Position numbers and translations under genes: made by a program. Below are positions 14,273 through 32,413 of a DNA stretch of 64,000 bases, in pieces. The stretch is taken from NCBI RefSeq assembly GCF_903933125.1, contig NZ_CAIZIZ010000477.1, forward strand, positions 1 to 64,000, read 5' to 3'. The stretch's first letter is position 1; each line of letters starts with the position of its first letter. Source of the stretch: an uncultured Lamprocystis sp. (GTDB lineage: Bacteria; Pseudomonadota; Gammaproteobacteria; Chromatiales; Chromatiaceae). The notes under the pieces were generated by a model. The model was given only the letters and a program-made list of their open reading frames with translations. It ran no database searches and was not told the DNA's origin.

Positions 14273-14823
14273 ATGGTGCCCCCGCTTTCGCATCGGGTTG
14301 CCGGATGTGTCGAGACGGCGAGCCAGCTGTATCACCGGCTGGTCATCCTCGCGGGTCCACCGCGCTCGGGAAAGACGCGCGCCTTCCGCACGCTCCACGG
14401 ATCGATGGCTTGGCCGATGGTCAATATCAACTTGGCGCTCTCTGAGAGACTGCTGGAGCTAACCTCGCGCCAACGAGCACTCCGCGCCGCTCGGCTGGTC
14501 GACGATATCGTTCGGGAGACTGCCGGGGAGATCGTTCTGCTCGACAACATCGAGATGCTCTTTCATTCCTGCTCGACAACATCGAGATGCTCTTTCATTC
14601 GGAGCTGAAACAGGACCCACTGCGGCTTCTCCAGAGTCTCTCGCGCAACCGTACGATCGTGACGACGTGGCGAGGCGTTTACTCGGGCGCGTCACTCACT
14701 TACGCGGTACCCGATCATTTTGAATATCGGCGCTATGACGATCCACAGGCGCTCATTGTTTCGTCCGTGGGGACTCACCCCGAAATCGGCGGCGAGACGC
14801 TTGCCCAGGAGCATCCGGTTTGA
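14273..14823 (+). pseudogene. brxF: BREX-3 P-loop protein BrxF, frameshifted by a 32-bp tandem duplication
   Basis: ORF 14273-14608 carries LAGPPRSGKTRAF and LLDNIEMLFHS; ORF 14587-14823 continues ELKQDPLRLLQSLSRNRTIVTTW; deleting one 32-bp copy joins them (519 nt, 172 aa). Confidence 0.82.
14537..14600 (+). repeat. perfect 32-bp tandem duplication (2 copies)
   Basis: ctgctcgacaacatcgagatgctctttcattc at 14537-14568 and 14569-14600. Confidence 0.98.
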
Positions 14824-17800
14824 AATACGCGGACCTTATCCAGTTCGACCCCATCGAGACCGTCGTTCAGCTCCGCGAGGCAGATCATGCGGCCAGCGCC
14901 CGCCGCCTGGTCGAGACCTTCGTCATCTCCGAGCGCATGGGCGAGCAGCTCGCAGACCTGGTGTTCCCGCAACTCCAGTTCGACACCCCGGCCGATAGCA
15001 AGGGTCTCCTCGTCGTCGGCAACTACGGTACCGGTAAGTCGCACCTCATGGCGGTGATCTCCGCGATCGCCGAGCACGCCGAGCTGGCCGACGCGGTGAC
15101 CAACCCGGCCGTGGCCGACAAAGCAACGCCGATCGCCGGTCGTTTCTTCGTCATCCGGGCGGAGATCAATTCGTCGATGCCGCTGCGTCAGTTTGTCATG
15201 GAGACGCTTCAGGATCAGCTTGCCGAACAGGGTGCTCACTTCGATGTGCCGCCCGAGGACCAGGTGAAGAATCACAAGGACGTGCTCGCCTCCATGATGG
15301 CTGCGTTCACCGAGCGGTTCCCCGACAAGGGCCTGCTCTTCGTACTCGACGAGCTGCTCGACTACCTCCGCTCCAACCGGGAACAGGAGCTGATGCGCAA
15401 CCTGAACTTCCTCCGCGCGGTCGGAGAGTTCGCCAAAGGCTCGCGCTTCCGCTTCGTCGCCGGCGTCCAGGAGAGCTTGTTCGACAACCCGCGGTTCCAG
15501 TTCGCCGCCGACAGCCTGCGGCGCGTCAAAGACCGCTTCGAGCAGATGCGCATCGCCCGTGAGGATGTGGCTCACGTTGTCGCGGAGCGTCTCCTCAAGA
15601 AAGATGCCAAACAGCAAGCGCTTGTGCGCGAGCATCTGATCAAATTCGCGCCGCTCTATGGCACGATGAACGAGCGAATGGACCAGTTCGTCAGGCTCTA
15701 TCCCGTGCACCCCGCCTATATCGACACCTTCGAGCGCGTCTACGTCGCCGAGAAGCGCGAGGTGCTCAAGACGCTCAGCGCCGCCATCCGCCGCATGCTC
15801 ACCGAGCACGTCCCGGACGACGCGCCCGGCCTCATCGCCTACGACTCGTACTGGCAGAACCTCAAGGACAACGCGTCCTTCCGCTCGGTCCCCGAGATCC
15901 GCGATGTCATCGAGAAGGCCGATGTGCTGGAGGCGCGCATCCAACAAGCCTTCACGCGTCCCCAGTATCGGCCCGCGGCGCTGCGCATCGTCCATGCGTT
16001 GTCCGTGCACCGCCTAACCACCAGCGACATCTTCGCCCCGATCGGCGCGACAGCAGAGGAGCTCCGCGACGACCTCTGTATCCTCCTCCCGCTGCCCGAG
16101 CGCGACGCAGAGTTCCTCAAAACCGTGGTCGAGACCGTCCTGCGGGAGATCGTCAAGACCGTCAGCGGCCAGTTCTTGTCCTTCAACCGAGAGAATGGCC
16201 AGTACTACCTCGATCTGAAGAAGGACATCGACTTCGACTCGCTGATCGAGAAGCGGGCCGAGTCGCTCAGCGACTCCCAACTCGATCGCTACTACTTCGA
16301 CGGGGTCCGCCGCGTCGTCCTGGAAGACCCCGAAGCGCCCCCCTACGTGTCCGGCTACCGCATCTGGGAGCACGAGATCGAATGGCGGGAACACAGGGCC
16401 GGCCGGAGCGGCTATCTCTTCTTCGGCGCGCCGAACGAGCGCTCGACGGCTCAGCCGGCACGCGACTTCTACATCTATTTCATTCAGCCGTTCGAGGCCC
16501 CCTATTTCAAGGACGAGCGCAAGCCCGACGAGGTGTTCTTCCGACTCGCCCAGCGGGACGAGGAATTCGACCACGCACTCAGGCTCTACGCCGGTGCCCG
16601 GGAGCTCTCCGCCTCGGCCTCGGGCGGGAACAAAAAGAACTACGACGACAAGGCGGGCGCGCATCTGCGGACCATGACCCGCTGGCTGCAAGAGAAGCTT
16701 ACGACCGCCTATGAGGTTACCTGTCAGGGGAAGACAGGGTCCCTCGGCGAGCTGCTCCAGACGCTCTTCGCCCGCGCGCCGTCACGGGGCGGCGTACGCG
16801 ACTATATCGACGTGGCGGCCGCCGTGTCCCTGTCCCCGCACTTCGCGGATCAGGCCCGCCACTATCCGATCTTCGACACGCCCATCACCCGGGCCAACCG
16901 GGGGCAGGCCGCCCAGGATGCGCTCCGCTGGATCGCCGGCAGCGTCAAGAGCAAGCTGGGCGCGTCGATCCTTGATGCCCTCGAGATGCTCGACGGCGAC
17001 CAGCTCCGGCCAAGGAAGTCCCGCTATGCCAAGCACATCGTCGAGCAGCTCGGCACCAAGGGTGAGGGCCAAGTGCTGAACCGCTCCGAGCTGGTGCAGG
17101 AAGAGGCAGGCGTCGAGTACTGGACCCGTTTCCGGCTGGAGCCGGAATTTCTCGCCGTCGTCCTGGCCGGACTGGTTCACAGCGGCGATCTGGTGCTGAG
17201 CATCACGGGGAAGAAGATCGACGCCGGCGCCATCGACCAGTTCGCGAAGGCCCCCATCGACGATATCGCCCGGTTCAAGCATGTCGAGCGCCCCCGCGAC
17301 CTACCCCTTGGCGCGCTGCAGGAGCTGTTCGACCTGTTTGGGGTGCCCAAGGGTCTGATCGTCAACCCCGCGAATCGCGACGACGCGGTCACGCAGCTGC
17401 AGATCAAAGTGGCGGAGCTGGTCAACAAGGTCGTCCTTGCCCACGCTCGTGTGGGGGACATGATCCTCTGGGGAAAGCCCATCCTCGCCGAGCAGGAGCA
17501 GGCAGAGTGGCGCAAGCGCCTCAACGACCTGAAGCGATTCCTGGAGTCGCTCCAGGCATTTAACACCGCGGGGAAACTCAAGAGCTTCCCGCACGATGTC
17601 GCCGCCATTCAGGCTCAGGAATCCGGACTCGCGCTGGTGCGCGAGGTCGAGGACCTGGTCGAACTGGTCCAGCAGGTTGGCCCAACGACATCGTATCTGG
17701 GGAAGGCGGAAGCCGTACTTCAGGCGGGCCATCCCTGGGTTGACCAAATGCGCGAGCGACGCGGCGAGCTGATGGCCAAGATCACGAGCCCGAAGCACCG

Positions 17801-18518
17801 CGCAGACCCCAGCTTCCAGCGCTCGCTCGGCCAGGCATTGGCGGAGCTCAAGACCGCCTATCGGGATGCCTACCTGGCCAGTCACGCCCAGGCCCGCCTT
17901 GGCGCCACCGACGACCAGCGCAAGGCGCGGCTTGCCCAGGACCCCCGTCTCAAGCAGGTCCAGCCGTTGTCCACCGTGGAGATGATGCCGGCGCAGCAGC
18001 TGCGGGACTTCCAGAACGCACTGTTCGGGCTCAAGACCTGCTTCGGTCTGACGAAGCCGGACCTCGACGCGGACCCGATCTGTCCCCACTGCTCGTTCCG
18101 GCCGGTCGAGGAGCCGTTCGCGGGGACCAAGGCGGGCGACCGGATCGCGGAGCTGGACCGCGACCTCGACGACATGGTGCAGAGCTGGACCGGCACGCTG
18201 CTCGGCAACCTTCAGGATCCGACCGTCGCGGGGGACATCGACCTCCTGGGCGCCGGCGAGGGCCGGGACGCGGTCGATGCCTTCTTGAATGAAAAGCGGC
18301 TTCCGGACCCCGTGAGCCCGGCCTTCGTGAAGGCGCTTGCCGAGATCCTGAGCGGTCTCGAAAAGCTGGTGGTCAACGAGACACGGCTGCGCGCAGCCCT
18401 TACCGGGGGCGGAATCCCTTGCACCATCAACGAGTTTAAGGATCGATTCGAGAGCTACATTACCGGCCTGACCAAGGGCAAAGAAGCCTCCCGGGTGCGT
18501 ATCGTCGTAGAGAAGTAG
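14820..18518 (+). CDS. brxC: BREX-3 large ATPase BrxC (DUF6079-like)
   Basis: 1232 aa; Walker A GNYGTGKSHLM, Walker B LLFVLDELLDYL; TTG start overlaps the brxF stop. Confidence 0.82.
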   Translation: MKYADLIQFDPIETVVQLREADHAASARRLVETFVISERMGEQLADLVFPQLQFDTPADSKGLLVVGNYGTGKSHLMAVISAIAEHAELADAVTNPAVADKATPIAGRFFVIRAEINSSMPLRQFVMETLQDQLAEQGAHFDVPPEDQVKNHKDVLASMMAAFTERFPDKGLLFVLDELLDYLRSNREQELMRNLNFLRAVGEFAKGSRFRFVAGVQESLFDNPRFQFAADSLRRVKDRFEQMRIAREDVAHVVAERLLKKDAKQQALVREHLIKFAPLYGTMNERMDQFVRLYPVHPAYIDTFERVYVAEKREVLKTLSAAIRRMLTEHVPDDAPGLIAYDSYWQNLKDNASFRSVPEIRDVIEKADVLEARIQQAFTRPQYRPAALRIVHALSVHRLTTSDIFAPIGATAEELRDDLCILLPLPERDAEFLKTVVETVLREIVKTVSGQFLSFNRENGQYYLDLKKDIDFDSLIEKRAESLSDSQLDRYYFDGVRRVVLEDPEAPPYVSGYRIWEHEIEWREHRAGRSGYLFFGAPNERSTAQPARDFYIYFIQPFEAPYFKDERKPDEVFFRLAQRDEEFDHALRLYAGARELSASASGGNKKNYDDKAGAHLRTMTRWLQEKLTTAYEVTCQGKTGSLGELLQTLFARAPSRGGVRDYIDVAAAVSLSPHFADQARHYPIFDTPITRANRGQAAQDALRWIAGSVKSKLGASILDALEMLDGDQLRPRKSRYAKHIVEQLGTKGEGQVLNRSELVQEEAGVEYWTRFRLEPEFLAVVLAGLVHSGDLVLSITGKKIDAGAIDQFAKAPIDDIARFKHVERPRDLPLGALQELFDLFGVPKGLIVNPANRDDAVTQLQIKVAELVNKVVLAHARVGDMILWGKPILAEQEQAEWRKRLNDLKRFLESLQAFNTAGKLKSFPHDVAAIQAQESGLALVREVEDLVELVQQVGPTTSYLGKAEAVLQAGHPWVDQMRERRGELMAKITSPKHRADPSFQRSLGQALAELKTAYRDAYLASHAQARLGATDDQRKARLAQDPRLKQVQPLSTVEMMPAQQLRDFQNALFGLKTCFGLTKPDLDADPICPHCSFRPVEEPFAGTKAGDRIAELDRDLDDMVQSWTGTLLGNLQDPTVAGDIDLLGAGEGRDAVDAFLNEKRLPDPVSPAFVKALAEILSGLEKLVVNETRLRAALTGGGIPCTINEFKDRFESYITGLTKGKEASRVRIVVEK

Positions 18519-18527
18519 AGGCCAGCG

Positions 18528-19619
18528 ATGGACCGAGAGACCCTGCTCGACTTCGACGCCAAGCTCGTCGACAGCGCTGGGCCCGGCGACCTCGACGCCG
18601 ACTCCCTGAACTGGCTGCGGGCGCGGGTTCGTTCGCCGATCGGCGCGACGGACTGGGCCAAGCTGTCCGACCAGGAATGGCTCCAACGACTCGGACTGAT
18701 GCGGGGCGACCGCCTGACGCGTGCGGCGCTCTTGCTGTGCGGAGACATGGGTCCGCTCAGCTTCGTCAACCCAACCCCGCGCGTCGACTTTCGACGCATG
18801 AACTACCCCTCCACCGACCCCGTTCACGAGGAGCGCTGGAGCGACCGCGAGGTGGTCGACGGCAACATCGTGCAGGCGCTGCGCCTGCTCCTCGACCGCT
18901 TTGAGCGCCTCGTCCCCAACCCCTTCGCCCTTGAGGTCGACGGCTTCACCCGTCGCGCCGTCGGCCCACACTTGGCACCGCTGCGCGAGGCCCTCGTCAA
19001 CCTGCTGGTCCACCAGGACCACGGCGACCACCGCATCGCGCGCGTGCTCTGGTACTCGGACAAAATTCTTTTCGAGAACCCCGGGGACTCCCTCGTGCCG
19101 CTGCAGGAACTGCTCGCCGGCGGTGCGACCGATTGCCGCAACCCGACGGTTCAGCGGGCCATGCGCATGGCGCAGCTCGCCGAGCAAGCCGGCAGCGGAG
19201 TTGTGGGGCTGTGCGAACGCTGGGAGGGACTCACCGGCCAAGTCCCGGTCATCGCGAACGACCCCGCGGGCAAGACCTACGCCATCGAACTCCCGTGGCC
19301 GCAGGAACAAGCGACCGAACGGGTCACCCCGCAAGTGACCCTGCAAGTACCCCCGCAAGTGACCCAGCAAGTCAGCCAACTTGTGGAAGCACTCGATGGG
19401 GAGATGACTCGGGGCGATCTGCTGGAGCGCCTGGGGCTCAAGGATCGCATGCACTTCGTATCCGCCTACCTGACACCGGCTCTCGATTTCGGCGTCGTCG
19501 AGATGACCATTCCTGACAAACCGCGCAGCTCGCGGCAGAAATACCGCCTTACCGAGAGCGGCAGGGTACTCGCCCAGCAGCTTTCCAACCAGCCAAGAGA
19601 GCGGGAGGAGCCGAAATGA
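18528..19619 (+). CDS. RecG-C-terminal/GHKL-like ATP-binding transcriptional-regulator-type protein
   Basis: LREALVNLLVHQDH...ILFENPGD...CRNPTVQRAM...AEQAGSGVV; then VTPQVTLQVPPQVTQQV linker and wHTH tail. Confidence 0.7.
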   Translation: MDRETLLDFDAKLVDSAGPGDLDADSLNWLRARVRSPIGATDWAKLSDQEWLQRLGLMRGDRLTRAALLLCGDMGPLSFVNPTPRVDFRRMNYPSTDPVHEERWSDREVVDGNIVQALRLLLDRFERLVPNPFALEVDGFTRRAVGPHLAPLREALVNLLVHQDHGDHRIARVLWYSDKILFENPGDSLVPLQELLAGGATDCRNPTVQRAMRMAQLAEQAGSGVVGLCERWEGLTGQVPVIANDPAGKTYAIELPWPQEQATERVTPQVTLQVPPQVTQQVSQLVEALDGEMTRGDLLERLGLKDRMHFVSAYLTPALDFGVVEMTIPDKPRSSRQKYRLTESGRVLAQQLSNQPREREEPK

Positions 19620-19783
19620 CGGCCTGGCAAAGTGAGACGGGTATTACCGACCCCGCTAACGTTGGCGGGCTTGCCTGCCCGATCGGCGAGCGTGAGGCGC
19701 ACTTTCGGGGCATCGTTTGCGATATAGCCAAGCGAAAGGACGGCTCGCGCGTGTGCGTCCCAGCGGACACGCGACATGGTTAA
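19616..19783 (+). CDS. 55-aa small ORF MTAWQSETGITDPANVGGLACPIGEREAHFRGIVCDIAKRKDGSRVCVPADTRHG
   Basis: Not in the supplied track; ATGA overlap with the upstream gene and 8-bp overlap with the downstream gene. Confidence 0.5.
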   Translation: MTAWQSETGITDPANVGGLACPIGEREAHFRGIVCDIAKRKDGSRVCVPADTRHG

Positions 19784-21500
19784 AGTGATCGCCGATCAGT
19801 GGCCGTTGCGCCGAGGGAGCCTCATCTACCCTATGCCCGTCGCGATCGCTTGCGGTCGGGTGCTGCGCGCAAGAACGGCCGCAGAGCGCGTCAACGCCAG
19901 CCTCAAGGCAGCAGAGGTGCTCACGCGGTACCTCGCTGCGGTTGCGGTAGCCTCCTTCGCGTCCCGGAACGACGAGGCGGAAGCCAAGCTCAGCGAGCTG
20001 AGCGGCAAGTTGTCTTTCGGCCACTTTCTAAGGACGGTGCAGGAGGTGGCCGGTGCCAAGGGAAATCACCCCGCAGCACCACTGCTGGCGCAAGGATTCA
20101 AAACGACCAAGCGGAACAACCTACGCGGCAAGACGGACGCCGCGCTGGTCGCGCTGCTCGAACTGCGCAATGGCGACGGGCACGACCTGCGCAACCTGGA
20201 CGAGGCGAAGGCCATCGCGATTGAGGCGACCGCCGCGCCCGTAAGTGAACTCTTGGCAGCTCTCGACGGTGTAGACGCCATCCTATCGAAGCCACTTTTT
20301 GTCGTTGAAAACCAGGAATGGACGCGTGACGCGCTCATCCTACATCGCCTCGTGTTGATGGGGGAGTCAGATCCCACGCCGGAATCCATAAAGGTCAACC
20401 TCGGGGCGGGCGTCGGAGAGACCCATGTCCCGTACATCGCCATCAATAGTATTTGCCTTCAGCTTCCCCCTTGGCTGCTGTGGGGTATAGACCGCGAGCG
20501 CCAAAACTTCTCGCTGCTCTTCCTCGACGCTGTGGATGGCGCGCGAACTCGGTACCGTACGCTCGACGGTGGTACACAATATCACGATGACGGCCTAGCT
20601 AGCTCGGTTCGCGAACTCTGCTCCGGGAGCAATCGGGCGCCCGACATGGTCGTTCTTCTGGATGGCCGACACCTCGCGAACGAGTGGGGAGAAACCCGCA
20701 ACCGCATCGAGGAAAGCGGTCGACGGGAAGCTGGACGCATCGATTGGCACGCCTTCGACACGGCGACTGTGCGCTGGTACGCCGCGCGTTTGGGCCCCGA
20801 TGCCGCTGATCCTCATGCACTCATCCGAGAGCGGCTCCTCGACGGTCGCTTCTTGGTCGAGCCGGACGAGTTGCGGCAAATCCGGTTGCTCTTCGGTACA
20901 CCGGCGGCGGTTCGCGGTGAACTGCAGCGAGCCGTGTTGGACCTGCGGGTCATCGAACCCAAGACGATGCGACCTGCAAAAGATAAGCGAGACACCGTCG
21001 AGTCGGCGAACCTCATTCAGGCACTCATGCGGGCCGTGCGCTTCTTCGCGGAGCAAACCGGCCTGAAGGATGTGGATCTCGAAGACCTCAGCAAGACTGA
21101 AGGCACGATCGACTACCTCACGCTACGCGAGATCTTCGTCAACCAGACTATCCATCAAGACTACCGAGATTCAAGCGCAGCCGCCCAGATCGAGATCCAC
21201 CCAGACAGGGTGACCGTATTCAACACGGGCTACTCGCTCGTGCCGACGGACAAACTTCTCGACGGGGGCAAGAGCCAATCGCGCAACCCCCTTATCGCGC
21301 GGGCGCTGCGCTTGATCGGGTTCGCCGAGATCTCGGGCTCCGGCATCCGCGCCGTGCACCGTGCCTGCCAGCAGGCGCACCGGCGAGCGCCGACCTTCGA
21401 GAGCAAAAAGGACACCAACACCTTCTCGCTGACCCTCCATTGGTCCGAAGGTGCGGCGGACATCGACGCCTACTGGCAGACGCTGGTCGGCCGCATCTAA
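19776..21500 (+). CDS. N-terminal HEPN-like + C-terminal GHKL-type ATP-binding protein
   Basis: N-terminal RNGDGH (R-x4-H) at 20166-20183; C-terminal LREIFVNQTIHQDYRDSS...VFNTGYS...QSRNPLIARALRLIGFAEISGSGI. Confidence 0.65.
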   Translation: MVKVIADQWPLRRGSLIYPMPVAIACGRVLRARTAAERVNASLKAAEVLTRYLAAVAVASFASRNDEAEAKLSELSGKLSFGHFLRTVQEVAGAKGNHPAAPLLAQGFKTTKRNNLRGKTDAALVALLELRNGDGHDLRNLDEAKAIAIEATAAPVSELLAALDGVDAILSKPLFVVENQEWTRDALILHRLVLMGESDPTPESIKVNLGAGVGETHVPYIAINSICLQLPPWLLWGIDRERQNFSLLFLDAVDGARTRYRTLDGGTQYHDDGLASSVRELCSGSNRAPDMVVLLDGRHLANEWGETRNRIEESGRREAGRIDWHAFDTATVRWYAARLGPDAADPHALIRERLLDGRFLVEPDELRQIRLLFGTPAAVRGELQRAVLDLRVIEPKTMRPAKDKRDTVESANLIQALMRAVRFFAEQTGLKDVDLEDLSKTEGTIDYLTLREIFVNQTIHQDYRDSSAAAQIEIHPDRVTVFNTGYSLVPTDKLLDGGKSQSRNPLIARALRLIGFAEISGSGIRAVHRACQQAHRRAPTFESKKDTNTFSLTLHWSEGAADIDAYWQTLVGRI

Positions 21501-21694
21501 CGGGAAAGCAGGCCGCCGTTCTGAACGCAATCGCCGAAGCTGCGAGCGTTACGGTCCCTCTTATCGAGTCTTCGACAGGGCTGAACACGGATGACCTCGC
21601 CGAGGCACTCGATTACCTCCTGCTTCAGGTCCTGGTCGAGCAGGACGAGTCGAACTACCGCCTGGCGCAGCACATCAGAGAGAAGTTGGGATGA
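21440..21694 (+). CDS. winged-helix-like small protein or frameshifted C-terminal domain of the preceding protein (start uncertain)
   Basis: LTGKQAAVLNAIAEAASVTVPLIESSTGLNTDDLAEALDYLLLQVLVEQDESNYRLAQHI; stop overlaps pglX ATG (ATGA). Confidence 0.55.
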   Translation: MVRRCGGHRRLLADAGRPHLTGKQAAVLNAIAEAASVTVPLIESSTGLNTDDLAEALDYLLLQVLVEQDESNYRLAQHIREKLG

Positions 21695-24495
21695 ACAATC
21701 AGCAGGATCTTGCTTTCGAATCGCGGCAACCGGCCAACGGTCCCGTCGAGTGTCTTGGGATGACCTTCGAGAGCGATGAGGCTCGGCGGTCGCACTTCCT
21801 TGGGCTGCTCCAGGAGAGACTCCAAGATCCAGAGTTTCGCAGGACACCCGGCTTCCCACAGGGGAGCGACGAGGCCATCCTGCGGATGTCCGATCCACCC
21901 TTCTACACGGCCTGCCCGAACCCGTTCCTTAAGGACTTCATCCGGGTCTACGGAAAACCGTACGACCCGGACGAGCACTACGAGCGCGAGCCCTTCGCCG
22001 TCGATGTCAGCGTCGGCAAAACCGATCAGCTTTACAAGGCGCATGGCTATCACACCAAGGTGCCCCACCTCGCCATCGTCCCATCCATCCTTCACTACAC
22101 GCGACCCGGAGATCTCGTCCTCGACGGCTTCTGCGGCTCGGGCATGACGGGGCTCGCCGTGCAGTGGTGCGGGACCGCTCCAGCTAGCTACCGCCAGCAG
22201 GTCGAAGTAGAGTGGAAAGCTGCCGGGCACCCCAACCCCGAATGGGGCGCTCGGAAGGTCGTCCTGAACGATCTTGGCCCTGCCGCGTCGTTCATTGCTG
22301 CGGGGTACAACCTACCTTTCGATGCGGAGCGCTTCGAGCAGGAGGCAGAGCGGATACTGAACGAAGTCAGCGATGAACTCGGATGGATGTACGAGTGTTT
22401 GCATACGGATGGCAAGACGAAGGGGCGCCTTAACTACACGGTCTGGAGCGAAGTCTTCTCGTGTCCGCAGTGTGCCAAAGAGGTCAACTTTGTTGAGGAG
22501 GCTTTCGATAAAGCGTCCGGAGATACCAGCAGTAAGTTTCCTTGCCCGCACTGTAAGATCGAACTCACGAAGAAGCGTCTCGATCGGCTTTACGTTACTC
22601 ATTACGACCAAGCGATCGGCGTCGTCGTAAAGGTCCCAAAGCGTACGCCTGTGCTCCTCAACTACAACGTGGGAGCGAAAACGCATCAGCGTGCTCCTTC
22701 GCAGGCGGACATTGATCTACTCGCAAGGATCGAAGAGCTGGCGTTGCCGCCGGACGTTCCGACTTCCGCTCTACCGTACATGCACATGACGCACGAGCGT
22801 GCCCGGATGGATCTGGTTGGCGTCACCCACGTGCACCATTTCTTTATTCCTCGCGCTGCTCACGCGGTCGCAGCCCTCTGGCGTAAGACAAATGCGGTGC
22901 CAGATCGGAGTCTCCGACGCATGCTGCTCTGGTTCATGGAGCAAGCAATCTGGGGGATTTCTCTCCTCAACCGATATAAGGAGAAGCAGTTCGGCCGGAT
23001 TGGTGGGTCTCAGGTCAACAACTACATGTCTGGAATCTACTACATCTCCTCCGTCATCGGAGAATGCAGTCCGTGGTACATCCTGCACGAAGCGACGAAG
23101 CGCTCTACTAAGTTAAGCCGCCTTGCAACATCATTTCTTCAGGCTCCAGCGGTTGACGGGCGTGCAATCATCCAAACCGGTGACTGCGCATCGATTCCGA
23201 CGCCCGATGCATGCATCGACTACATCTTCACCGACCCGCCATTCGGCGAGAATATTTATTACGCGGATCTGAATTTCCTGGTGGAATCATGGCATGGCGT
23301 GATGACGGATTCGGCAAATGAGGCCATCGTCGATCAGGCCAAACGAAAGGGCGTCCATGAGTATCAAGCGCTGATGCGACGCTGCTTCGAGGAATACCAC
23401 CGCGTCCTCAAGCCCGGTCGCTGGATGACCGTTGTCTTCAGCAATTCCAGCAATGCCATTTGGCGCGCGATCCAGGAAGCCATGGGAACAGCGGGCTTTG
23501 TGGTCGCCGACATGCGAACCCTCGACAAGCAGCAGCTCGCTTATAAGCAAGTCATCGGTCACTCCGTTAAGCAAGATCTCATCATCACGGCCTACAAGCC
23601 GACCGAGATGCTCGCGCATCGATTTGAGCTGGGCCAAGCCACCGCCGAAGGCGCCTGGGCATTCATCAAGGAGCATCTGGGAAACGTCCCGTTGTTCGTT
23701 GGGCGCTCTACGGCGAGCGAGGTGGTTGCCGAGCGCACCGCGCAGATGCTGCTCGACCGGATGACCGCCTTCCATGTACAGCGCCACTTACATGTGCCGC
23801 TCTCCAGTCCGGAATTCCTCCAGGGTCTCGCGCAGCGCTTTCCCGAGCGTGACGGGATGTACTTCCTACCAGATCAGGTGGCGGACTACGACCGCAAGCG
23901 CACGAGCGTCAGCGAACTGCGCCAGCTCAGTCTCTTCGTCAACGACGAGGCCAGCGCCATTCAGTGGGTGCGCCAACAGTTGCAGGACAAGCCGCAGAGC
24001 TTTCGGGACCTCACTCCGCAGTACATGCGCGAGCTTCAGGCTTGGGCGCAGCACGAGACGACGGTCGAGCTGAAGGTCATCCTCGATCAGAGCTTCCTTC
24101 ACTACGATGGCCGGGGCCCGGTCCCGAGCCAGATCCACCGCTACCTCTCTACTAATTACAAAGACCTACGCAACATCGACAAGGAAGACCCGAAATTGAT
24201 CGAGAAGGCCCGTGATCGCTGGTATGTGCCCGACCCGAGCAAGCAGGCGGAGCGCGAGGCCATCCGAGAGAAAGCACTGCTGCGGGAGTTCGAGGAGTAC
24301 AAGACAAGCACCCAGCGCAAGCTCCAACTCTTTCGCACCGAGGCGGTACGCGTCGGCTTCAAGGCGTGTTGGCAGGAGCGCGACTACGACACCATCGTGA
24401 AGGTTGCGGAGAAGCTCCCCGAAGCGGTGCTCCAGGAGGACGAGAAGCTGCTCATGTATTACGACAACGCGCTGACGCGGTTGGGGGATGACTGA
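21691..24495 (+). CDS. pglX: BREX-3 adenine-specific DNA methyltransferase PglXI
   Basis: LDGFCGSGMTGLAVQW SAM motif, IFTDPPFGENIYYADL catalytic motif, zinc-ribbon-like CPQC...CPHC. Confidence 0.85.
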   Translation: MNNQQDLAFESRQPANGPVECLGMTFESDEARRSHFLGLLQERLQDPEFRRTPGFPQGSDEAILRMSDPPFYTACPNPFLKDFIRVYGKPYDPDEHYEREPFAVDVSVGKTDQLYKAHGYHTKVPHLAIVPSILHYTRPGDLVLDGFCGSGMTGLAVQWCGTAPASYRQQVEVEWKAAGHPNPEWGARKVVLNDLGPAASFIAAGYNLPFDAERFEQEAERILNEVSDELGWMYECLHTDGKTKGRLNYTVWSEVFSCPQCAKEVNFVEEAFDKASGDTSSKFPCPHCKIELTKKRLDRLYVTHYDQAIGVVVKVPKRTPVLLNYNVGAKTHQRAPSQADIDLLARIEELALPPDVPTSALPYMHMTHERARMDLVGVTHVHHFFIPRAAHAVAALWRKTNAVPDRSLRRMLLWFMEQAIWGISLLNRYKEKQFGRIGGSQVNNYMSGIYYISSVIGECSPWYILHEATKRSTKLSRLATSFLQAPAVDGRAIIQTGDCASIPTPDACIDYIFTDPPFGENIYYADLNFLVESWHGVMTDSANEAIVDQAKRKGVHEYQALMRRCFEEYHRVLKPGRWMTVVFSNSSNAIWRAIQEAMGTAGFVVADMRTLDKQQLAYKQVIGHSVKQDLIITAYKPTEMLAHRFELGQATAEGAWAFIKEHLGNVPLFVGRSTASEVVAERTAQMLLDRMTAFHVQRHLHVPLSSPEFLQGLAQRFPERDGMYFLPDQVADYDRKRTSVSELRQLSLFVNDEASAIQWVRQQLQDKPQSFRDLTPQYMRELQAWAQHETTVELKVILDQSFLHYDGRGPVPSQIHRYLSTNYKDLRNIDKEDPKLIEKARDRWYVPDPSKQAEREAIREKALLREFEEYKTSTQRKLQLFRTEAVRVGFKACWQERDYDTIVKVAEKLPEAVLQEDEKLLMYYDNALTRLGDD

Positions 24496-24899
24496 TGCCG
24501 GACCCATCGACTTGCGAGGCGTGGCTGGGCGTTGCCCGGGAGCGCGGACTCGACGCAAAATCGATGCTGCCTTCGCGAGCGACGTCCGTCGGTCCCGTCT
24601 ACATGGCGGGTTACGCGGTCGAGTCTGCGCTGAAAGCATACCTACAGGCAAGAGGAATCCCCCGCCCGACCTCAGGATCTGCGGGTCATGATCTACGTGC
24701 GCTTTGGAAGGCCAGCGGTTTGCAGCTACGTGACCTCCGCGACTCGGATGGAAGTGCTACCTTCTTCATCGATGAGTGGACGACCGCGCTTCGGTACGAG
24801 GCCCGGCCAGCGAGCGGCCAGCGGGACTCGCAGAAGCTCATCGACGGGGCAGGACGGCTCGTCGGATTCGTCACGGGATTGATTAGGAGGAGCTCGTGA
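24495..24899 (+). CDS. HEPN domain-containing protein
   Basis: YMAGYAVESALKAYLQARGI...GHDLRALWKASG typical HEPN helices; TGATG and GTGA junctions to its neighbours. Confidence 0.7.
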   Translation: MPDPSTCEAWLGVARERGLDAKSMLPSRATSVGPVYMAGYAVESALKAYLQARGIPRPTSGSAGHDLRALWKASGLQLRDLRDSDGSATFFIDEWTTALRYEARPASGQRDSQKLIDGAGRLVGFVTGLIRRSS

Positions 24900-27517
24900 A
24901 CAGCCAAGACATCAAGACGGCACTTCGACAGCGCTTCCAGGACCTCGGCTGGGACGCAGAGGAGCCTGACATCAAGATCCAGCGCGACCCTTACCGTGGC
25001 TGGAACATCGCCATCATCTCGACGCAGTTCGTTGGCATCGGACAACCCGAGCGACGTCAAGTCTTAATGCTTGCCCTCGCTGGCGTTGAGTTGGCATGGT
25101 TAGACCTTCTGACCCCAGAGGAGGTGGAGTGGGCAGGGCCCCTCCCAGGAGACCTAGAGCCGGAACAGCTTCCCCTGTGGCCGGAAGCCCTGGCTCGCGG
25201 GTCCCTGGAGCAGACACCCTCGATCCTGCTCGCATCCGATCTCGATGAGGACTTGGCGCCACCGCTCGTCGCCACATTTTACTCGTTGCGGGGGGGCGTC
25301 GGCCGGTCGACAGCGCTCGCGCATACTGCACGGATATTGGCGGCGAGGCGCAAGAAGGTGGTTTGCGTCGATATGGACCTCGAGGCCCCAGCACTCCCGA
25401 TTCTTCTTGGTTGCGATGCCGAACTCAGGGCAGACCAAGGCGTCGTCGACATCCTGATGACGCTGGACCAAGGCGCAACCCCGGACTACGCCGCTCACAT
25501 CCTGCCCGCGCCGGGCAGCGACGGACTCTTCGTGGTGCCTGCGGGGCGGATCAGCGCGGACTATGCGCGCAAGCTGCGATTCGTGAACCCAGGGGCTTGG
25601 TATCGCGAGGAGCGCAATCCGTTGCAGGACATGATGGAGGGCCTAAAGAGCCTGCTGCCGTTTCGCCCGGACGCAATCCTTCTCGACGCCCGCACCGGGA
25701 TCACGGACCTCAGCGGGCCCCTGCTCTTTGACTTGGCCGACATCGCGGTCATCGTGTTCTTCCCACACCCGCAAACGCTCTCGGGAACCGAGCTGCTCGC
25801 CCGGAGCATCCTCCGAGCGACCACCGGGCGCTCTATCGGCAATGGTCAGCGCCTGGTACCAGAGGTGCGATTCCTCGTCTCTCCGATTCCGGCGACCACC
25901 GCGCCGGAGCTGAAGAGACGATACATGCATCGGCCCCTGGAATGGATCAGCGGATGGCTGGAGGATTTCAATGACGCGCGTCAGCAAGGTGGCCTTGACC
26001 CGGTCGACGCCAACGACATCACGCACTTTGTACAGTATCGCGAGGATCTCGCCACGAGTGATTCCGTCGTAGGGTTCCGGGCGACGCTCGACGCCTTCGA
26101 GCCTGTCGCCGACTGGCTGCAGCGCTTCCTGCGCAGTGCCGGCGAAGCGCAGGCAGACTCGTCAGTGAAGGCGGCCAAGCCCCAAGTGCTGGCAGATCTG
26201 GACTTCTCGGCCGGCACGGCCGAAGAGCAGGCGGGACTTCTCGAAAGCTTCGTACGAACTGAAAGTGTCGACGAAGCGCTCTCCATGGATATTCCACTCG
26301 TGCTGGGTCGGAAAGGAACGGGGAAGACCGCCCTGTTTCGCTTCCTGCTGGAGCGTGGGGCGCCCCGCGCCGTGGCAGTTCACGCGCCGAGAGCCTTGAG
26401 CGCGGACCGACAGTGGCAGCTGACCCCGGACGGCTTCGCAGCAGCAGAGGAAGTGATCGCGCGCGGCGGCATCGGCTGGCGGCACTTTTGGACGCTGTAC
26501 GCGGCAATTGCCCTCGACGCCCGGGCGGACGCTGACAACGCCGCGGTGCGTCCGGCCTATCTCGCGGACAACGATTTCTCAGGTCAAGGCGCGATCATCG
26601 ATGCACTCGAACGAACCCGCGCCACCAGCCGGGGGGCTCTCGACATCCACGATTGGCTGCGTCGAATCGACGCTGCGGTCGATGCTGAAACGCTGATGCT
26701 TTTCGATGGTCTCGACACCGGCTTCGGCAGCACGGCGGAGGAGCGCGAGCGGCGTCGGCGGAGCATCGAGGGACTGTTCGAAGCCTGGATGGACGTAGGA
26801 CAGGGGCTTGCGAGCCTGCGATTCAAGATCATGCTTCGCGAGGATATTTGGCGACAAGTCAACTTCGCGAACAAGAGCCATCTTTACGGCAAGACGGTTC
26901 CCCTGAAATGGTCGAACCAAACGAGCTTTCTCAAAGTGGTGATGAAGCAGGCGATGCGCGCCGAGAGCTTCAGAAAGCTGCCATTCATCGCGAGCGTTGC
27001 TGGCGAGCCGGTCGACCGGTGGTCGGATGATGTGGTCTACCAGGCATGGAACCTGCTCGTCGGCGAGCGAATGAAGGGAGGACAGACGACCTTCACGCGC
27101 AATTGGGTGTGGAATCGGCTTGCGGACGCCAATGAGGACCATTTCCCTCGTTATCTACTGCAGTTGTTTCGGGAGGCAGTGGCGTGGGAGCGGCGAGAAG
27201 AGCGCAGGTCACGCTATGAGCGGAGCTTTGTCCGGCCGCGCGCACTCACAGAGCCCTTGGTGAGCGTTTCAGAGCAGGCCGTCGTGGCCCTGCAAGAGGA
27301 GTTCCTCGAGCTCGACCCCCTGTTCAAGGCGCTCCGGCAGGCTGGACGGACGCCGATCGACGCAGCAATGCTTGAACCGTATCGAGAGCTCATTCCACTT
27401 GCTCGCGAGGTAGGGTTACTTGGCGTTTACGAAGAGAGCGCCGACGAGGTCATCCGCTTCAAGATTCCTGATCTCTACCGCCTTGGTCTGAAGATGACGC
27501 GCAAGGGTCAAGCTTGA
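24896..27517 (+). CDS. two-P-loop ATPase: BolA-like N-terminus, MinD/ParA-like KGGVGR-variant domain, and a second AAA-type P-loop
   Basis: SLRGGVGRSTALAHTARILA...VVCVDMDLEAPAL and LGRKGTGKTALFRFLLE with LMLFDGLDTGF; GTG start. Confidence 0.72.
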   Translation: MNSQDIKTALRQRFQDLGWDAEEPDIKIQRDPYRGWNIAIISTQFVGIGQPERRQVLMLALAGVELAWLDLLTPEEVEWAGPLPGDLEPEQLPLWPEALARGSLEQTPSILLASDLDEDLAPPLVATFYSLRGGVGRSTALAHTARILAARRKKVVCVDMDLEAPALPILLGCDAELRADQGVVDILMTLDQGATPDYAAHILPAPGSDGLFVVPAGRISADYARKLRFVNPGAWYREERNPLQDMMEGLKSLLPFRPDAILLDARTGITDLSGPLLFDLADIAVIVFFPHPQTLSGTELLARSILRATTGRSIGNGQRLVPEVRFLVSPIPATTAPELKRRYMHRPLEWISGWLEDFNDARQQGGLDPVDANDITHFVQYREDLATSDSVVGFRATLDAFEPVADWLQRFLRSAGEAQADSSVKAAKPQVLADLDFSAGTAEEQAGLLESFVRTESVDEALSMDIPLVLGRKGTGKTALFRFLLERGAPRAVAVHAPRALSADRQWQLTPDGFAAAEEVIARGGIGWRHFWTLYAAIALDARADADNAAVRPAYLADNDFSGQGAIIDALERTRATSRGALDIHDWLRRIDAAVDAETLMLFDGLDTGFGSTAEERERRRRSIEGLFEAWMDVGQGLASLRFKIMLREDIWRQVNFANKSHLYGKTVPLKWSNQTSFLKVVMKQAMRAESFRKLPFIASVAGEPVDRWSDDVVYQAWNLLVGERMKGGQTTFTRNWVWNRLADANEDHFPRYLLQLFREAVAWERREERRSRYERSFVRPRALTEPLVSVSEQAVVALQEEFLELDPLFKALRQAGRTPIDAAMLEPYRELIPLAREVGLLGVYEESADEVIRFKIPDLYRLGLKMTRKGQA

Positions 27518-27560
27518 TGTCACGCGACCGCGATGCGCAGCGCGTGACCCGGTGTAGGTC

Positions 27561-30386
27561 ATGACGCCGGGCGACTGGTACTACAGCCCCGACCACGATG
27601 AGCCCGCCCGGGTCATCGGGGTGGACGTCGTATGGGGGGAAGAGACCGCCCAGGTCTGGCTGGCCCGGCGGGATGCCGTGGTGCGCCTGCATCGAAGTCG
27701 CTTGCAGCCACTCGCCGAGACTGCCGGTCCGTCGCTCGACCAGCTCTGCTACGTCGCCGCCGCGGCCCGCATCCTGGATGCGCTAGAGCGCGATGCCCTG
27801 ATTGCCCCGCTCGAAGGGTCGGTCATCCCGTTGCCGCACCAGCTCTACGCGCTCCAGCGGGCGATGGCGGGGGACCGGGTCCGGTACCTGCTCGCCGACG
27901 AGGTGGGCCTGGGAAAAACCATCGAGGCGGGCCTCATTCTGCGCGAGCTGAAAGTCCGCGGCCTTGCCAGGCGCATCCTGGTGGTCGCACCGGCGGGGCT
28001 CACGAGCCAGTGGGTCAGCGAGATGAAGACCCACTTCAGCGAAAACTTCCGGCTGGTTCAGCCCGGCAATTTTCAGGCGTGGCGCCAGGTGGCAGGGGTC
28101 GACGAGACCGAGAACCTCTGGCGCCTGTACGACCAGGTGGTCTGCCCGCTGGACTCCATCAAGCCCATGGACGCCCGCCGCGGCTGGTCGCGGGAGCAGG
28201 TGGCCCGCTACAACCGCGAACGCTTCGAGGATCTGGTCTCCGCCGGCTGGGACCTGATCATCGTCGACGAGGCGCATCGGCTCGGGGGCAGCTCGGAGCA
28301 GGTGGCGCGTTATCGGCTCGGCGAAGCCCTGGCCCAGGCGTCACCCTACCTGCTGCTGCTCTCGGCGACTCCGCACCAGGGCAAGACCGACGCCTTCCGC
28401 CGCCTGGTGGGCTTCCTCGACGCCGACGCCCTGCCCGACGACGAGTCGGTCACGCGGGACAACGTGGCGCCCTATGTCATCCGGACCGAGAAGCGATGTG
28501 CCATTGATGCCGAGGGGAAACCGTTGTTCCGCCCGCGTTATACCCAGATCGTCTCGGTGGCCTGGGAGGCCGCGCGCCAGGAGCAGCGCGCACTCTACGA
28601 GGCAGTGACCGAATACGTCCGCGAAGGCTACAACCAGGCGGTGCGCGATAAGCGGACGGCCATCGGGTTCCTGATGATCCTGATGCAGCGCCTGGTGACA
28701 TCCAGCACCACGGCAATCCGCACGGCCCTTGAGCGCCGCCTTAAGGTGCTGGAGCTGCCTTCCGGACAGCTTTCTTTGTTCGGGGAGGATGTGGACGATG
28801 AATGGGTCGAGCTCGACGGCCAGGGCCTGATGGAGTCGCTGCTTCAGAGTAGGCTCGCGGGCCTGAAGAACGAGCGGGCCGAGGTCGAGCTGCTGCTGTC
28901 CGCCGCCCGCCGCTGCGAGGCCCGGGCGCCGGATGGGAAGTCGGAGGCGCTTCTGGCCTGGATTCAGAGGCTGCAACGCGAGGAAAACGACCCGGCACTC
29001 AAGGTGCTCGTCTTCACCGAGTTCATCCCCACCCAGACGATGCTCGCCGACTTTCTGGGGCAGCGCGGGTACACGGTTGCGTGCCTGAACGGATCGATGG
29101 ATCTTGATGCGCGCAAGTCCGTGCAGCGAGCCTTCGCGGGGGAAGCCCAGGTGCTGATCTCCACCGATGCCGGCGGCGAGGGGCTCAACCTCCAGTTCTG
29201 CCACGTCATCGTGAACTACGACCTGCCGTGGAACCCGATGAAGATCGAGCAGCGGATCGGCCGCGTCGACCGCATCGGGCAGAAGCACATCGTTCGGGCG
29301 CTCAACTTCGCCCTTGAAGACACCGTCGAGCTTCGCGTAAGGGAGGTGCTGGAGGAGAAGCTGCAACGCATCCTCGAAGAGTTCGGCGTGGACAAACTCT
29401 CTGATGTACTCGACTCCGAGGAGGGCGGACTGGACTTCGAGAGGCTCTATGTCGAGGCGGTGCTCTCGCCCGAGGAGGCGGAGGCTCGGGCCGAGGCGCT
29501 GGCGGACTCCATCCGGGCTCGGGCGCGTTCGGCTCGCGAAGGTGCTTCCGTACTGAGCGCAACGGAAGCGCTCGATCCCTCGGCCGCTCAGAAAGTGGCG
29601 GGCCACCAGATGCCGTATTGGACGGAGCGCATGACGGTGTCGTGGCTGCAAAACCAGGCGACCCGGGGCGCCCGGGTCCGGTTGCGCTCCCCGGGCGTCT
29701 ACGATCTCACCTGGCCCGACGGGCGGGAGATCGCTTCCGCATCGTTCGCCCGCTCGGCGGCGGACGATCCCGGCAAGACCCTGCTCACCATCGAGGATCC
29801 CAATGTCCGGGGACTGACCATGCGGATACCGCCCTACGCCCCGGGTCTGCCCGTGGCGCGGATCGTCGTCCCCGGCGTATCGGACAAGGTCAGCGGCTTC
29901 TGGTCATTGTGGCGCATCGGGCTGTCGACGTTCGACGGCCGCGAGCAACGCGCGATGCCGATCTTCGTGACCGGGGAGGGGCAGGCCCTTGGTCCAACGG
30001 CGCGGGCTGTCTGGGACCGGATCGTCGAGCTGGGCGACGGTCTTGAGCTGCTGGCAGCTCCGGCATCGACCGGTGAACGCATCGATTGCGCCTTCGAGCA
30101 GGCGCGTGCGGCGGCCGAACAGCAGGGTAAGACGGTTTTCAACGAACTGATCCAGCGGCACCGAGAACGCATCGGGCAGGAGACCAGGAAGATGACCAAC
30201 GCATTTGCAGCGCGCCGCCGGGCAATCGAGCGGCTCGGCTTGCCGGAGGTACGAGGCTTCCGCCTGGCCCAGCTCGCCCAGGAGGAGGCGGGCTGGCGAC
30301 GGGATCTTGCGCAGCGGGAGCATGGCCTGCCGGACCTGACCCCCCTCCTGTTGGTCGCGGTCGCGCGGACCGGAGATGCGCCATGA
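27561..30386 (+). CDS. brxHII: BREX-3 SNF2/HepA-type helicase BrxHII
   Basis: LADEVGLGKTIEAGLIL, IIVDEAHRL, STDAGGEGLNLQFCHVIVNYDLPWNPMKIEQRIGRVDRIGQ. Confidence 0.85.
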   Translation: MTPGDWYYSPDHDEPARVIGVDVVWGEETAQVWLARRDAVVRLHRSRLQPLAETAGPSLDQLCYVAAAARILDALERDALIAPLEGSVIPLPHQLYALQRAMAGDRVRYLLADEVGLGKTIEAGLILRELKVRGLARRILVVAPAGLTSQWVSEMKTHFSENFRLVQPGNFQAWRQVAGVDETENLWRLYDQVVCPLDSIKPMDARRGWSREQVARYNRERFEDLVSAGWDLIIVDEAHRLGGSSEQVARYRLGEALAQASPYLLLLSATPHQGKTDAFRRLVGFLDADALPDDESVTRDNVAPYVIRTEKRCAIDAEGKPLFRPRYTQIVSVAWEAARQEQRALYEAVTEYVREGYNQAVRDKRTAIGFLMILMQRLVTSSTTAIRTALERRLKVLELPSGQLSLFGEDVDDEWVELDGQGLMESLLQSRLAGLKNERAEVELLLSAARRCEARAPDGKSEALLAWIQRLQREENDPALKVLVFTEFIPTQTMLADFLGQRGYTVACLNGSMDLDARKSVQRAFAGEAQVLISTDAGGEGLNLQFCHVIVNYDLPWNPMKIEQRIGRVDRIGQKHIVRALNFALEDTVELRVREVLEEKLQRILEEFGVDKLSDVLDSEEGGLDFERLYVEAVLSPEEAEARAEALADSIRARARSAREGASVLSATEALDPSAAQKVAGHQMPYWTERMTVSWLQNQATRGARVRLRSPGVYDLTWPDGREIASASFARSAADDPGKTLLTIEDPNVRGLTMRIPPYAPGLPVARIVVPGVSDKVSGFWSLWRIGLSTFDGREQRAMPIFVTGEGQALGPTARAVWDRIVELGDGLELLAAPASTGERIDCAFEQARAAAEQQGKTVFNELIQRHRERIGQETRKMTNAFAARRRAIERLGLPEVRGFRLAQLAQEEAGWRRDLAQREHGLPDLTPLLLVAVARTGDAP

Positions 30387-32413
30387 CAGAGCGAACCGGA
30401 GGATGGCGGGCCCCGATCCTTCAGCACTTCAGTGCAGCGAGCGCGGCGGCAGGGCGGCTCACGATCGTAAGCGACCCGGACGCGCTGCTCACCGAGCCCG
30501 GGGTAGTCGAGCGCCTCGGAGAGAGCGGCTTCGAACTGATCGGGTTCGGCGATCCGGTCGCTTTCCGGTACGCCTACGAGACCCGGTTTCGCCAGCACTG
30601 GGACCGAGGCGAAGCCACACATCTGGTGGTGGTCATCCGAACCAGCCACAGCGACTTGAGGCAGGTCCCCCACGACTTGCTTCAAGATGCCCGTGAGAAC
30701 GGACGGGTGTTGTCATTCAGCCTCGTTCACCTCTTCCCGATGCTGGCGCCGAACATCGTCGCCGAGTTGGACCCGCAGCACTTCGACGCCCTTGCCAAGG
30801 CGCTCGCGAAGGTCGCCCCGGGCAGCCTCGGAACGAACGCCACCCGCGACTTCATCCTGCGGCACGTCTTCGAGATCGCCCCAGAGCTGATCAAGCAACC
30901 TGCCGATCTGCTGCGTGTTCTACTGCGCCGGCATTACCGCTCGCGGATCATTCCTCCAAGCCTCGACGAGCGTTTCGTCGAACTACTGAGGCAGGATCCG
31001 GTTTGGCAAAGCTGGCCTCTCGACCGGATCGTGCCGGATCGGGATGCCTTCCTGGCCTTCCTCTCGGAGCGCTGGCCGCACTTCCTCATCGCAAAGGGGC
31101 TCGATGTCGTCCCCGGTCGCGAGCCGGCCGCGCCGAGCATACTCGGGCCGGGGGTCCTGCCGTTCGACCATGACGATGTCCGCGTCTACATGGACAACCT
31201 GTTCGCGGACGGTATCCTTGAGCCGACCCCAGCGGTGCGGCCCATTGCAGACGATCGGTGGTTCGGGGTCGGTATCGCGGATTCGCCGGCATCGAGCCTC
31301 GAAAGCCGATTTCGCCATCTTCTGGAAGAGCTTGGCACGACGATTCCCAAGGCTGACGAGGCCACCCACGAACAGTGGCAGGAATTCAGCCTGCGCTGGG
31401 GAACCTGGGTACGTCTGCGCTGGCAGACTGAGCCGAACCGTGACGCCACGAGCGAAGCGGAGGCCGAGGCGCTTGCGCTTGCTGTGCAGGCCGCGTTCTC
31501 GACCTGGCTGTTGCGGCGATTCGCTCCGATGTCGTCGCTCCCCTACTTGCCGCGGCCGGTGCTGGGACATCACGTTCCCCATTACCTTGCGCACCACCTC
31601 GGGCAGCCCGGCACCGAACGCATCGCGCTGCTTGTGATCGATGGAATGGCCATTGACCAGTGGCACATCCTTCGCGATTCGCTGGACGGACTGCGTGTTG
31701 AGGAGCACGCAATCTTCAGCTGGATCCCGACGCTCACGCAGATCGGACGCCAGGCCATCTTCTCCGGCCGAATCCCGCTCGAATTCGCGGCCAGCATTGA
31801 CGGCACACACCGTGAGCAAAAGCACTGGTCGAGCTTCTGGCAGGACCGCGGACTCGGCGAGCGCGTGGTGCGCTACCTGAAGCCGCAGGGTCATAAGGAG
31901 TCTTTCCAGTCGCTGGCGGACGGCATCCTTGGTGCGGCGGATGACAACATGGTGCGCGTCATCGGGGCCGTGATCGGCATGATCGACCAGAGCATGCACC
32001 AGGTCGGCCTGGGCACCCCGGGCCTGCACGGGCTGGTCGAGGTGTGGTCCCGCACCAAGCAGCTCGCGGGTTTGGTCGACGCCTTGCTGCAGCGAGGATT
32101 CGCGGTATTCGTCACGGCGGACCACGGCAACGTGTTCGGGCGCGGATTCGGAAAGCCGGATGTCGGGCTCACCGCCGAGCAGCGGGGCGAACGGGCCCAT
32201 ATCTTCCGAAACCAAGACTTTAGGAGCAACACGATGCCGCACTTCCCTTCCGCCATTGCGTGGCCGCAGATTGGGCTGCCGCAAGACTATTTCCCCCTAA
32301 TCGCACCTTATGGCGCGTGCTTCATGCCCGTCGGAACGGAGTCCGTGAGCCATGGGGGAATCGCACTCGAAGAGGTGATGGTTCCCTTCGTTCGCGTTGC
32401 GGAGAAGCGATGA
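30383..32413 (+). CDS. pglZ: BREX-3 phosphatase PglZ
   Basis: ALLVIDGMAIDQWHIL...WIPTLTQIGRQAIFSG...VTADHGNV alkaline-phosphatase-superfamily motifs; ATGA overlap with brxHII. Confidence 0.85.
   Translation: MTERTGGWRAPILQHFSAASAAAGRLTIVSDPDALLTEPGVVERLGESGFELIGFGDPVAFRYAYETRFRQHWDRGEATHLVVVIRTSHSDLRQVPHDLLQDARENGRVLSFSLVHLFPMLAPNIVAELDPQHFDALAKALAKVAPGSLGTNATRDFILRHVFEIAPELIKQPADLLRVLLRRHYRSRIIPPSLDERFVELLRQDPVWQSWPLDRIVPDRDAFLAFLSERWPHFLIAKGLDVVPGREPAAPSILGPGVLPFDHDDVRVYMDNLFADGILEPTPAVRPIADDRWFGVGIADSPASSLESRFRHLLEELGTTIPKADEATHEQWQEFSLRWGTWVRLRWQTEPNRDATSEAEAEALALAVQAAFSTWLLRRFAPMSSLPYLPRPVLGHHVPHYLAHHLGQPGTERIALLVIDGMAIDQWHILRDSLDGLRVEEHAIFSWIPTLTQIGRQAIFSGRIPLEFAASIDGTHREQKHWSSFWQDRGLGERVVRYLKPQGHKESFQSLADGILGAADDNMVRVIGAVIGMIDQSMHQVGLGTPGLHGLVEVWSRTKQLAGLVDALLQRGFAVFVTADHGNVFGRGFGKPDVGLTAEQRGERAHIFRNQDFRSNTMPHFPSAIAWPQIGLPQDYFPLIAPYGACFMPVGTESVSHGGIALEEVMVPFVRVAEKR

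Follow-up and report, generated by a model that had tools for sequence, protein, structure and literature searches.

Bacteriophage exclusion (BREX) systems of type 3 have six core genes in a canonical order. Across BREX loci, about 7,000 of about 9,000 genomes carry genes between pglX and pglZ, including PARIS and BrxU, and in about 5,000 of the 7,000 loci with such genes they are unassigned (PMC11341690). HEPN and Schlafen-HK-wHTH (wHTH, winged helix-turn-helix) RNases inside BREX core loci are proposed in the main text of Rakesh and Krishnan 2026 (PMC12839542) to be backup suicidal effectors, and passages of PMC3710099 describe dyads of HEPN with ParA and note that Pgl operons can contain HEPN proteins. 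Here we describe a BREX type 3 operon in a 64,000-nucleotide stretch from an uncultured Lamprocystis sp. (contig NZ_CAIZIZ010000477.1, positions 1 to 64,000; hereafter the window). It has the same six core genes in the canonical order and differs by two cassettes and by a brxF gene that is frameshifted as assembled. One cassette (slot 1, between brxC and pglX) holds A, B and C; the other (slot 2, between pglX and brxHII) holds a HEPN gene, D, and a large ATPase gene, E.

An earlier note on this DNA, made from the letters alone, had proposed a BREX backbone with an added RNase, abortive-infection or regulatory arm, and had taken prior documentation of such accessory genes as grounds against it. 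Published work already covers HEPN and Schlafen effectors of BREX systems, cargo genes located between pglX and pglZ, and HEPN–ParA dyads, so the principle is known; as this class of accessory gene is on record for BREX, that objection holds in part. The identity of D–E, its recurrence, the HEPN-like replacement of a Schlafen head and the two-slot pattern of type 3 operons look new. We suggest, with a probability of roughly 45%, that D–E serves methylation-based restriction as a guard, a backup defence by abortive infection that works like PARIS or PrrC.

A HEPN–ATPase pair lies between pglX and brxHII

Slot 2 contains two genes:

24495..24899 (+), gene D: HEPN protein of 134 amino acids with an Ex3K motif, a conserved GH..L histidine and an LRY arginine (PF05168)
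24896..27517 (+), gene E: protein of 873 amino acids with a KGGVGR SIMIBI ATPase domain and an Sll1717-family P-loop ATPase domain (NF047398, NF047389, PDC-M28B/C)

D matches the HEPN profile PF05168 with an E value of 1.3e-5 and 25.7 bits, above the curated cut-off of 22. Ex3K and a separate H and R are conserved across 11 homologues (the copy at locus L069 deviates and is probably frameshifted), and the canonical RX4-6H active-site motif is absent from D and is not conserved in the alignment. A pattern like that of D, with Ex3K, H and R, forms the alternative HEPN active site of AbiV/AF0298 proteins (PMC3710099). In a Foldseek search the top matches of the D model were HEPN structures, 4nqf and, at rank 6, 2hsb; with an E value of 0.13 (not significant) and a probability of 0.96, the search weakly supports a HEPN fold. 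E scores 157 bits against NF047398 and 113 bits against NF047389, both above cut-off; its second P-loop domain keeps Walker A and B in 10 homologues, and a PDB sequence search with E matched MinD alone. The two-P-loop ATPase of the earlier note can be specified as KGGVGR SIMIBI plus Sll1717-family domains.

The pair occupies the site of a gap of around 10–13 nt from the pglX stop to the brxHII start in L017, L018 and L020, which lack slot-2 cargo, D–E included; the L019 contig ends before that region. L017 and L020 have a closely related backbone, with brxC 86–87% identical to that of the window.

The nearest catalogued match is the PADLOC candidate PDC-M28 (A/B/C), which has the same three domain families: HEPN, KGGVGR ATPase and Sll1717 ATPase occur together in both. 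E matches M28B at 2.6e-26 and M28C at 1.7e-19, the match of D is weak (0.022) and that of its orthologue on contig C145 reaches 4.1e-6. The B and C parts are fused in E, and PDC-M28 has no described function in the library; literature searches on Sll1717, KGGVGR and PDC-M28 returned nothing. PARIS (AriA/AriB) and BrxU are likewise accessory defence genes between pglX and pglZ, but PARIS combines an OLD-type ABC ATPase with a TOPRIM nuclease, whereas D–E combines SIMIBI and Sll1717 ATPase domains with HEPN; neither D nor E contains PARIS domains (OLD-type ABC ATPase, TOPRIM/DUF4435), which places the pair outside PARIS.

In the HEPN–ParA/Soj dyad of the MAE_18760 family, as described in passages of PMC3710099, a HEPN gene likewise adjoins a SIMIBI-type ATPase gene; the MAE_18760 HEPN keeps RX4-6H, whereas D does not, and E has an additional second P-loop domain. 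Those passages describe no restriction-locus setting for the MAE_18760-type dyad. The PrrC/RloC anticodon nucleases share the same working logic, a HEPN RNase and an NTPase tied to type I restriction (passages of PMC3710099), but we found no sequence relationship to D–E, their ATPase is of another class and the HEPN domain of D is not fused. Finally, the effectors in the main text of PMC12839542 are standalone HEPN or HEPN-MNT proteins, whereas the HEPN protein in the window has a SIMIBI/ParA-type partner; that main text contains no SIMIBI/ParA partner, CBASS or pglX-flanking position rule that we could find.

D–E recurs beside methylation-based restriction genes

Close relatives of D–E are rare and share 45–51% identity. 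The window's own genome carries a second copy in a BREX-1-like locus (L021, G000:C145:5000-24999) with the order brxC, first part of pglX, Fic, D, E, second part of pglX, pglZ, brxL, and genome G062 has the same layout. In G141 (L069:6982-15525) a BREX-3 remnant consisting of the pglX end, D–E, pglZ and brxA adjoins a type I restriction gene; in G826 the pair immediately follows a type IIG methylase gene, on its 3' side, beside a helicase; and in G093 E is beside DUF1156 methylase and DUF3780 genes. Every close D–E copy falls within or close to a methylation-based restriction locus, a recurrence that we observed directly. The sample of G826's order comprised 5 genomes only, and no further D–E was found in 219 genomes of the phylum of G913. 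We rejected D–E as a phage- or plasmid-borne element, having found no phage record and no viral contig; one plasmid match covered the whole length, a distant one (Nostoc, 30%, near hsdR).

From these sequence features we infer that D may be an RNase and E its sensor or antitoxin, with restriction inhibition as the probable trigger. D–E would be expressed at a low level by way of the pglX transcript and of translational coupling, and E, as a sensor or switch ATPase, would keep D inactive. When phage infects, or blocks the restriction machinery through an inhibitor, the nucleotide or binding state of E would change; D would then be released or activated and cut RNA, so that the cell stops before phage production. 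A precedent is the PARIS pair of Salmonella, which also lies between pglX and pglZ and can be lost without effect on methylation (PMC9009780, PMC11341690). In a wider form, which we regard as possible but doubtful, PARIS and PrrC/RloC would be joined by a third class of restriction guard: D–E, a portable pair of RNase and ATPase specialised in residing next to BREX-1-like, BREX-3, DUF1156/DUF3780 and type IIG/helicase loci, monitoring these systems and sensing their inhibition by phage.

Several observations weigh against the guard-module reading. Lacking RX4-6H, D may be non-catalytic, and the P-loop lysine of the SIMIBI domain in E is Arg throughout the compared homologues. The close set comprises just six loci, of which two are orthologous within one genus; D appears frameshifted in G141 and was not detected in G093. 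More distant HEPN/ATPase pairs in the source genome and its relatives are in other settings, and at L073:7644-15350 a distant HEPN/KGGVGR-ATPase pair adjoins an apparent CRISPR array. Within the operon itself, the N-terminus of the slot-1 gene C, HEPN-like in its motifs, found no match among the Pfam HEPN models at a threshold as loose as E=5 and gains no HEPN support from hhalign, and the AF2 model of C has a predicted local distance difference test score (pLDDT) of 36, too low for use as a fold test. The window also has frameshifts in brxF and in C, so the operon may be partly decayed.

The pair could instead be a toxin–antitoxin-like addiction module, carried as a passenger by the BREX operon, which it would stabilise without any part in phage sensing. 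D and E overlap tightly, HEPN plus ParA/Soj dyads have been proposed as toxin–antitoxin pairs (PMC3710099), and the PARIS pair between pglX and pglZ in Salmonella BREX is dispensable for methylation and unneeded for defence against the phages tested (PMC9009780, PMC11341690). We consider such a module unlikely, given that the close D–E clade lies in or beside restriction-type loci and not as free modules, and that E is far larger than a typical antitoxin and has two P-loop domains, like sensor ATPases.

Cargo flanks pglX in the sampled BREX type 3 loci

The earlier note had called for a profile search of each protein and a survey of BREX-3 loci; both were run and gave the domain calls reported here and the following pattern. 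Across 32 BREX-3 loci we scored extra DNA at a junction as a gap of more than 300 nt, a measure that by itself does not prove a gene in each case. Of 32 brxC–pglX junctions 28 had such a gap, as did 14 of 22 pglX–brxHII junctions, but none of the 69 other core junctions (brxF–brxC 0/27, brxHII–pglZ 0/19, pglZ–brxA 0/23). This slot pattern was observed directly in the sampled loci, 20 of which belong to the window's own family. Among the 12 from outside it, the brxC–pglX gap was found in 10 of 12 and the pglX–brxHII gap in 3 of 10; the rates, above all that of slot 2, thus vary with the loci sampled. A Klebsiella brxC probe found no BREX-3 in E. coli at megablast sensitivity.

Occupants of the slots in other BREX-3 operons include OLD/AAA_15 ATPase pairs, Schlafen-type genes and a CBASS-type (cyclic oligonucleotide-based antiphage signalling system) pair. 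In L119, the nearest cargo-bearing relative (brxC 80% identical to that of the window), slot 2 contains the CBASS-type pair in place of the window's HEPN and ATPase genes: an SMODS/AGS_C nucleotidyltransferase, with a PDB nucleotidyltransferase match, and a SLATT_4 effector (L119:7043-8975). L120, L121 and L083 have AAA_21/AAA_15 ATPases 3' of pglX, some loci with small partners; in L121 slot 2 comprises an AAA_15 ATPase, a 176-amino-acid protein and an RNA ligase (L121:8802-11547). BREX-3 cargo is interchangeable between relatives. By the working that we propose, the operon would have acquired its two accessory cassettes in permissive slots flanking pglX.

This interchangeability bears on a further explanation, in which the accessory genes serve this BREX variant as functional components or as regulators, A and C acting as transcriptional regulators through their HATPase and wHTH domains and D–E as a remodelling ATPase. 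Slot-1 genes of the HATPase/wHTH type are very common, and wHTH domains can bind DNA. Complete BREX-3 operons exist with no cargo (L034, L135), L017 and L020 lack slot-2 cargo, and the cargo types replace one another, all of which makes this explanation quite improbable. The position rule, with cargo only beside pglX, together with a named recurrent cassette, yields testable candidates among the unassigned BREX cargo and makes it possible to ask whether such genes keep the restriction system under surveillance.

Slot 1 holds a HEPN-like protein and a probable recombination scar

Slot 1 contains the following:

18528..19619 (+), gene A: HATPase_c_4 domain and Fic-like_C wHTH domain, 363 amino acids (Pfam PF13749, PF21247)
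19616..19783 (+), B: 55 amino acids, degenerate duplicate of the brxC 3' end, a scar (blastp; DNA alignment against shuffles)
19776..21694 (+), gene C: HEPN-like N-terminus (Ex3R, RX4H), unassigned middle, HATPase_c_4 and wHTH domains, frame split (PF13749; orthologue in L017)

A lacks the N-terminal Schlafen/AlbA-type half that its relatives carry. It aligns with the C-terminal part of Schlafen-type proteins, with 46% identity over residues 9–257 to a 621-amino-acid slot-1 protein of L085, and its wHTH domain is 60% identical to a remnant in L119; a PDB sequence search with A matched the Fic C-terminal wHTH alone. The Schlafen/AlbA RNase domain of Schlafen-HATPase-wHTH proteins is therefore missing from the window's slot 1, its half being absent from A and the N-terminus of C being unrelated.

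B, a 55-codon open reading frame that the earlier note had counted as a gene, matches BrxC C-termini by blastp (E=1e-7 for L018, 4e-6 for L017 and 2e-4 for the window's own BrxC), and its DNA aligns to L017 with a score of 69, where 200 shuffles gave at most 40. It directly precedes C, the place of the brxC 3' end in L017, L018 and L020. Because of this match and this position, B is read as a recombination scar and was rejected as a small regulatory or independent gene. The best reading of the sequence is that a brxC–A segment recombined into a brxC–C operon, leaving B behind; A would then be a head-less relative derived from recombination between two BREX-3 operons.

C is represented in L017 by a single fused frame of 642 amino acids that includes the wHTH domain (69% identity), and it is fused in L018 too. 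The window lacks 1 nt near 21491–21500, which severs the wHTH domain from the 574-amino-acid part of C; the wHTH frame, previously listed as a gene of its own, is the C-terminal domain of C, in frame in L017 and L018. Full-length relatives of C (65–71% identity) were found only in BREX-3 loci, always adjoining the brxC 3' end and preceding pglX wherever the contig continues. Their hosts are Candidatus Accumulibacter, two Acidobacteria and one deltaproteobacterium; A and B are absent from slot 1 in all of these loci. We found no C in viral contigs.

Elsewhere slot 1 holds a Schlafen-type 'RNA-binding domain' protein (Roseomonas and Roseicitreum plasmids; L079, L080, L083-L085), with which C shares its HATPase_c_4/wHTH half but not its N-terminus. 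The motifs E47..R51 (Ex3R) and R131..H136 (RX4H) of C are invariant in 4 homologues, in agreement with the Ex3[KR] plus RX4-6H pattern of HEPN RNases (PMC3710099), and a PDB sequence search with C gave no match. Since profile, hhalign and structure tests gave no confirmation of the fold, HEPN in C is a motif-level assignment only, so the HEPN labels of the earlier note stand for D by profile and for C by motif. In the proposed working C would replace the usual Schlafen/HATPase_c_4/wHTH protein, and slot 1 may act similarly to D–E. The genome of the window contains another BREX-3 locus (L025, G000:C387:1-12000), whose brxC–pglX interval is occupied by a Schlafen-type gene.

The two slots differ in their relatives and in their histories, and on this ground a single coherent insert was rejected. 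The RNase or abortive-infection arm suggested earlier fits the comparative evidence in that the inserts are absent in close relatives, occupy cargo positions and have HEPN features; it has to be divided into two unrelated cassettes, with two of its six 'genes' being a scar and a severed domain, in an operon whose brxF is frameshifted.

The backbone and the state of the operon

The operon spans 14273-33138 (+) in the order brxF-brxC-[insert]-pglX-[insert]-brxHII-pglZ-brxA by PADLOC and Pfam profiles, with these core features:

14273..14823 (+), brxF: frameshifted, N-part 14273-14608 and C-part 14587-14823 (PADLOC BrxF)
14537..14600 (strand not applicable): perfect 2 x 32-bp tandem duplication inside brxF (Tandem Repeats Finder, 100% matches, 0% indels)
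14820..18518 (+), brxC (DUF6079): 1232 amino acids, intact (PF19557, 1539 bits; PADLOC BrxC, 1742 bits)
21691..24495 (+), pglX (PglXI methyltransferase): 934 amino acids (PADLOC PglXI, 1320 bits)
27561..30386 (+), brxHII helicase: 941 amino acids (PADLOC BrxHI|BrxHII profile, 1354 bits)
30383..32413 (+), pglZ: 676 amino acids (PADLOC PglZ, 714 bits)
32410..33138 (+), brxA: start at 32410 overlaps the pglZ stop (PADLOC BrxA, 214 bits)

BrxC (DUF6079), PglXI, BrxHII, PglZ and BrxA are all present in order, and both interruptions lie where they had first been noted, between brxC and pglX and between pglX and brxHII; the architecture with its cassettes and the insertion points are directly observed and very well supported. 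Every junction overlap reported before was also found in the sequence: A/B at 19616-19619, B/C at 19776-19783, wHTH/pglX at 21691-21694, pglX/D at 24495 and D/E at 24896-24899. No sigma-70-like promoter candidate above chance was found within the operon, which is weak evidence, and no Rfam elements were found in 13–34 kb of the window.

An intact BrxF, present in L017 and L119, is missing from the window as assembled: positions 1–98 of the PADLOC BrxF profile match one frame and positions 95–154 another, the frame being shifted by the 32-bp tandem duplication. This duplication could reflect phase-variable slippage, decay or assembly error; the source genome is a draft of 589 contigs, so an assembly error is possible for both frameshifts, in brxF and in C. 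That the cassette region is decaying junk, functionless genes in an inactive BREX operon, would account for the duplicated and frameshifted brxF, the 1-nt frameshift in C, the head-less A and the scar B, but is improbable, as D and E are intact with conserved catalytic-type motifs, A, C, D and E retain a GC bias by codon position, and both the exact duplication and the missing nucleotide could have arisen recently or through errors in the draft assembly.

By eye only, we spotted an inverted repeat, GTCACGCG...CGCGTGAC, between E and brxHII (27518-27560).

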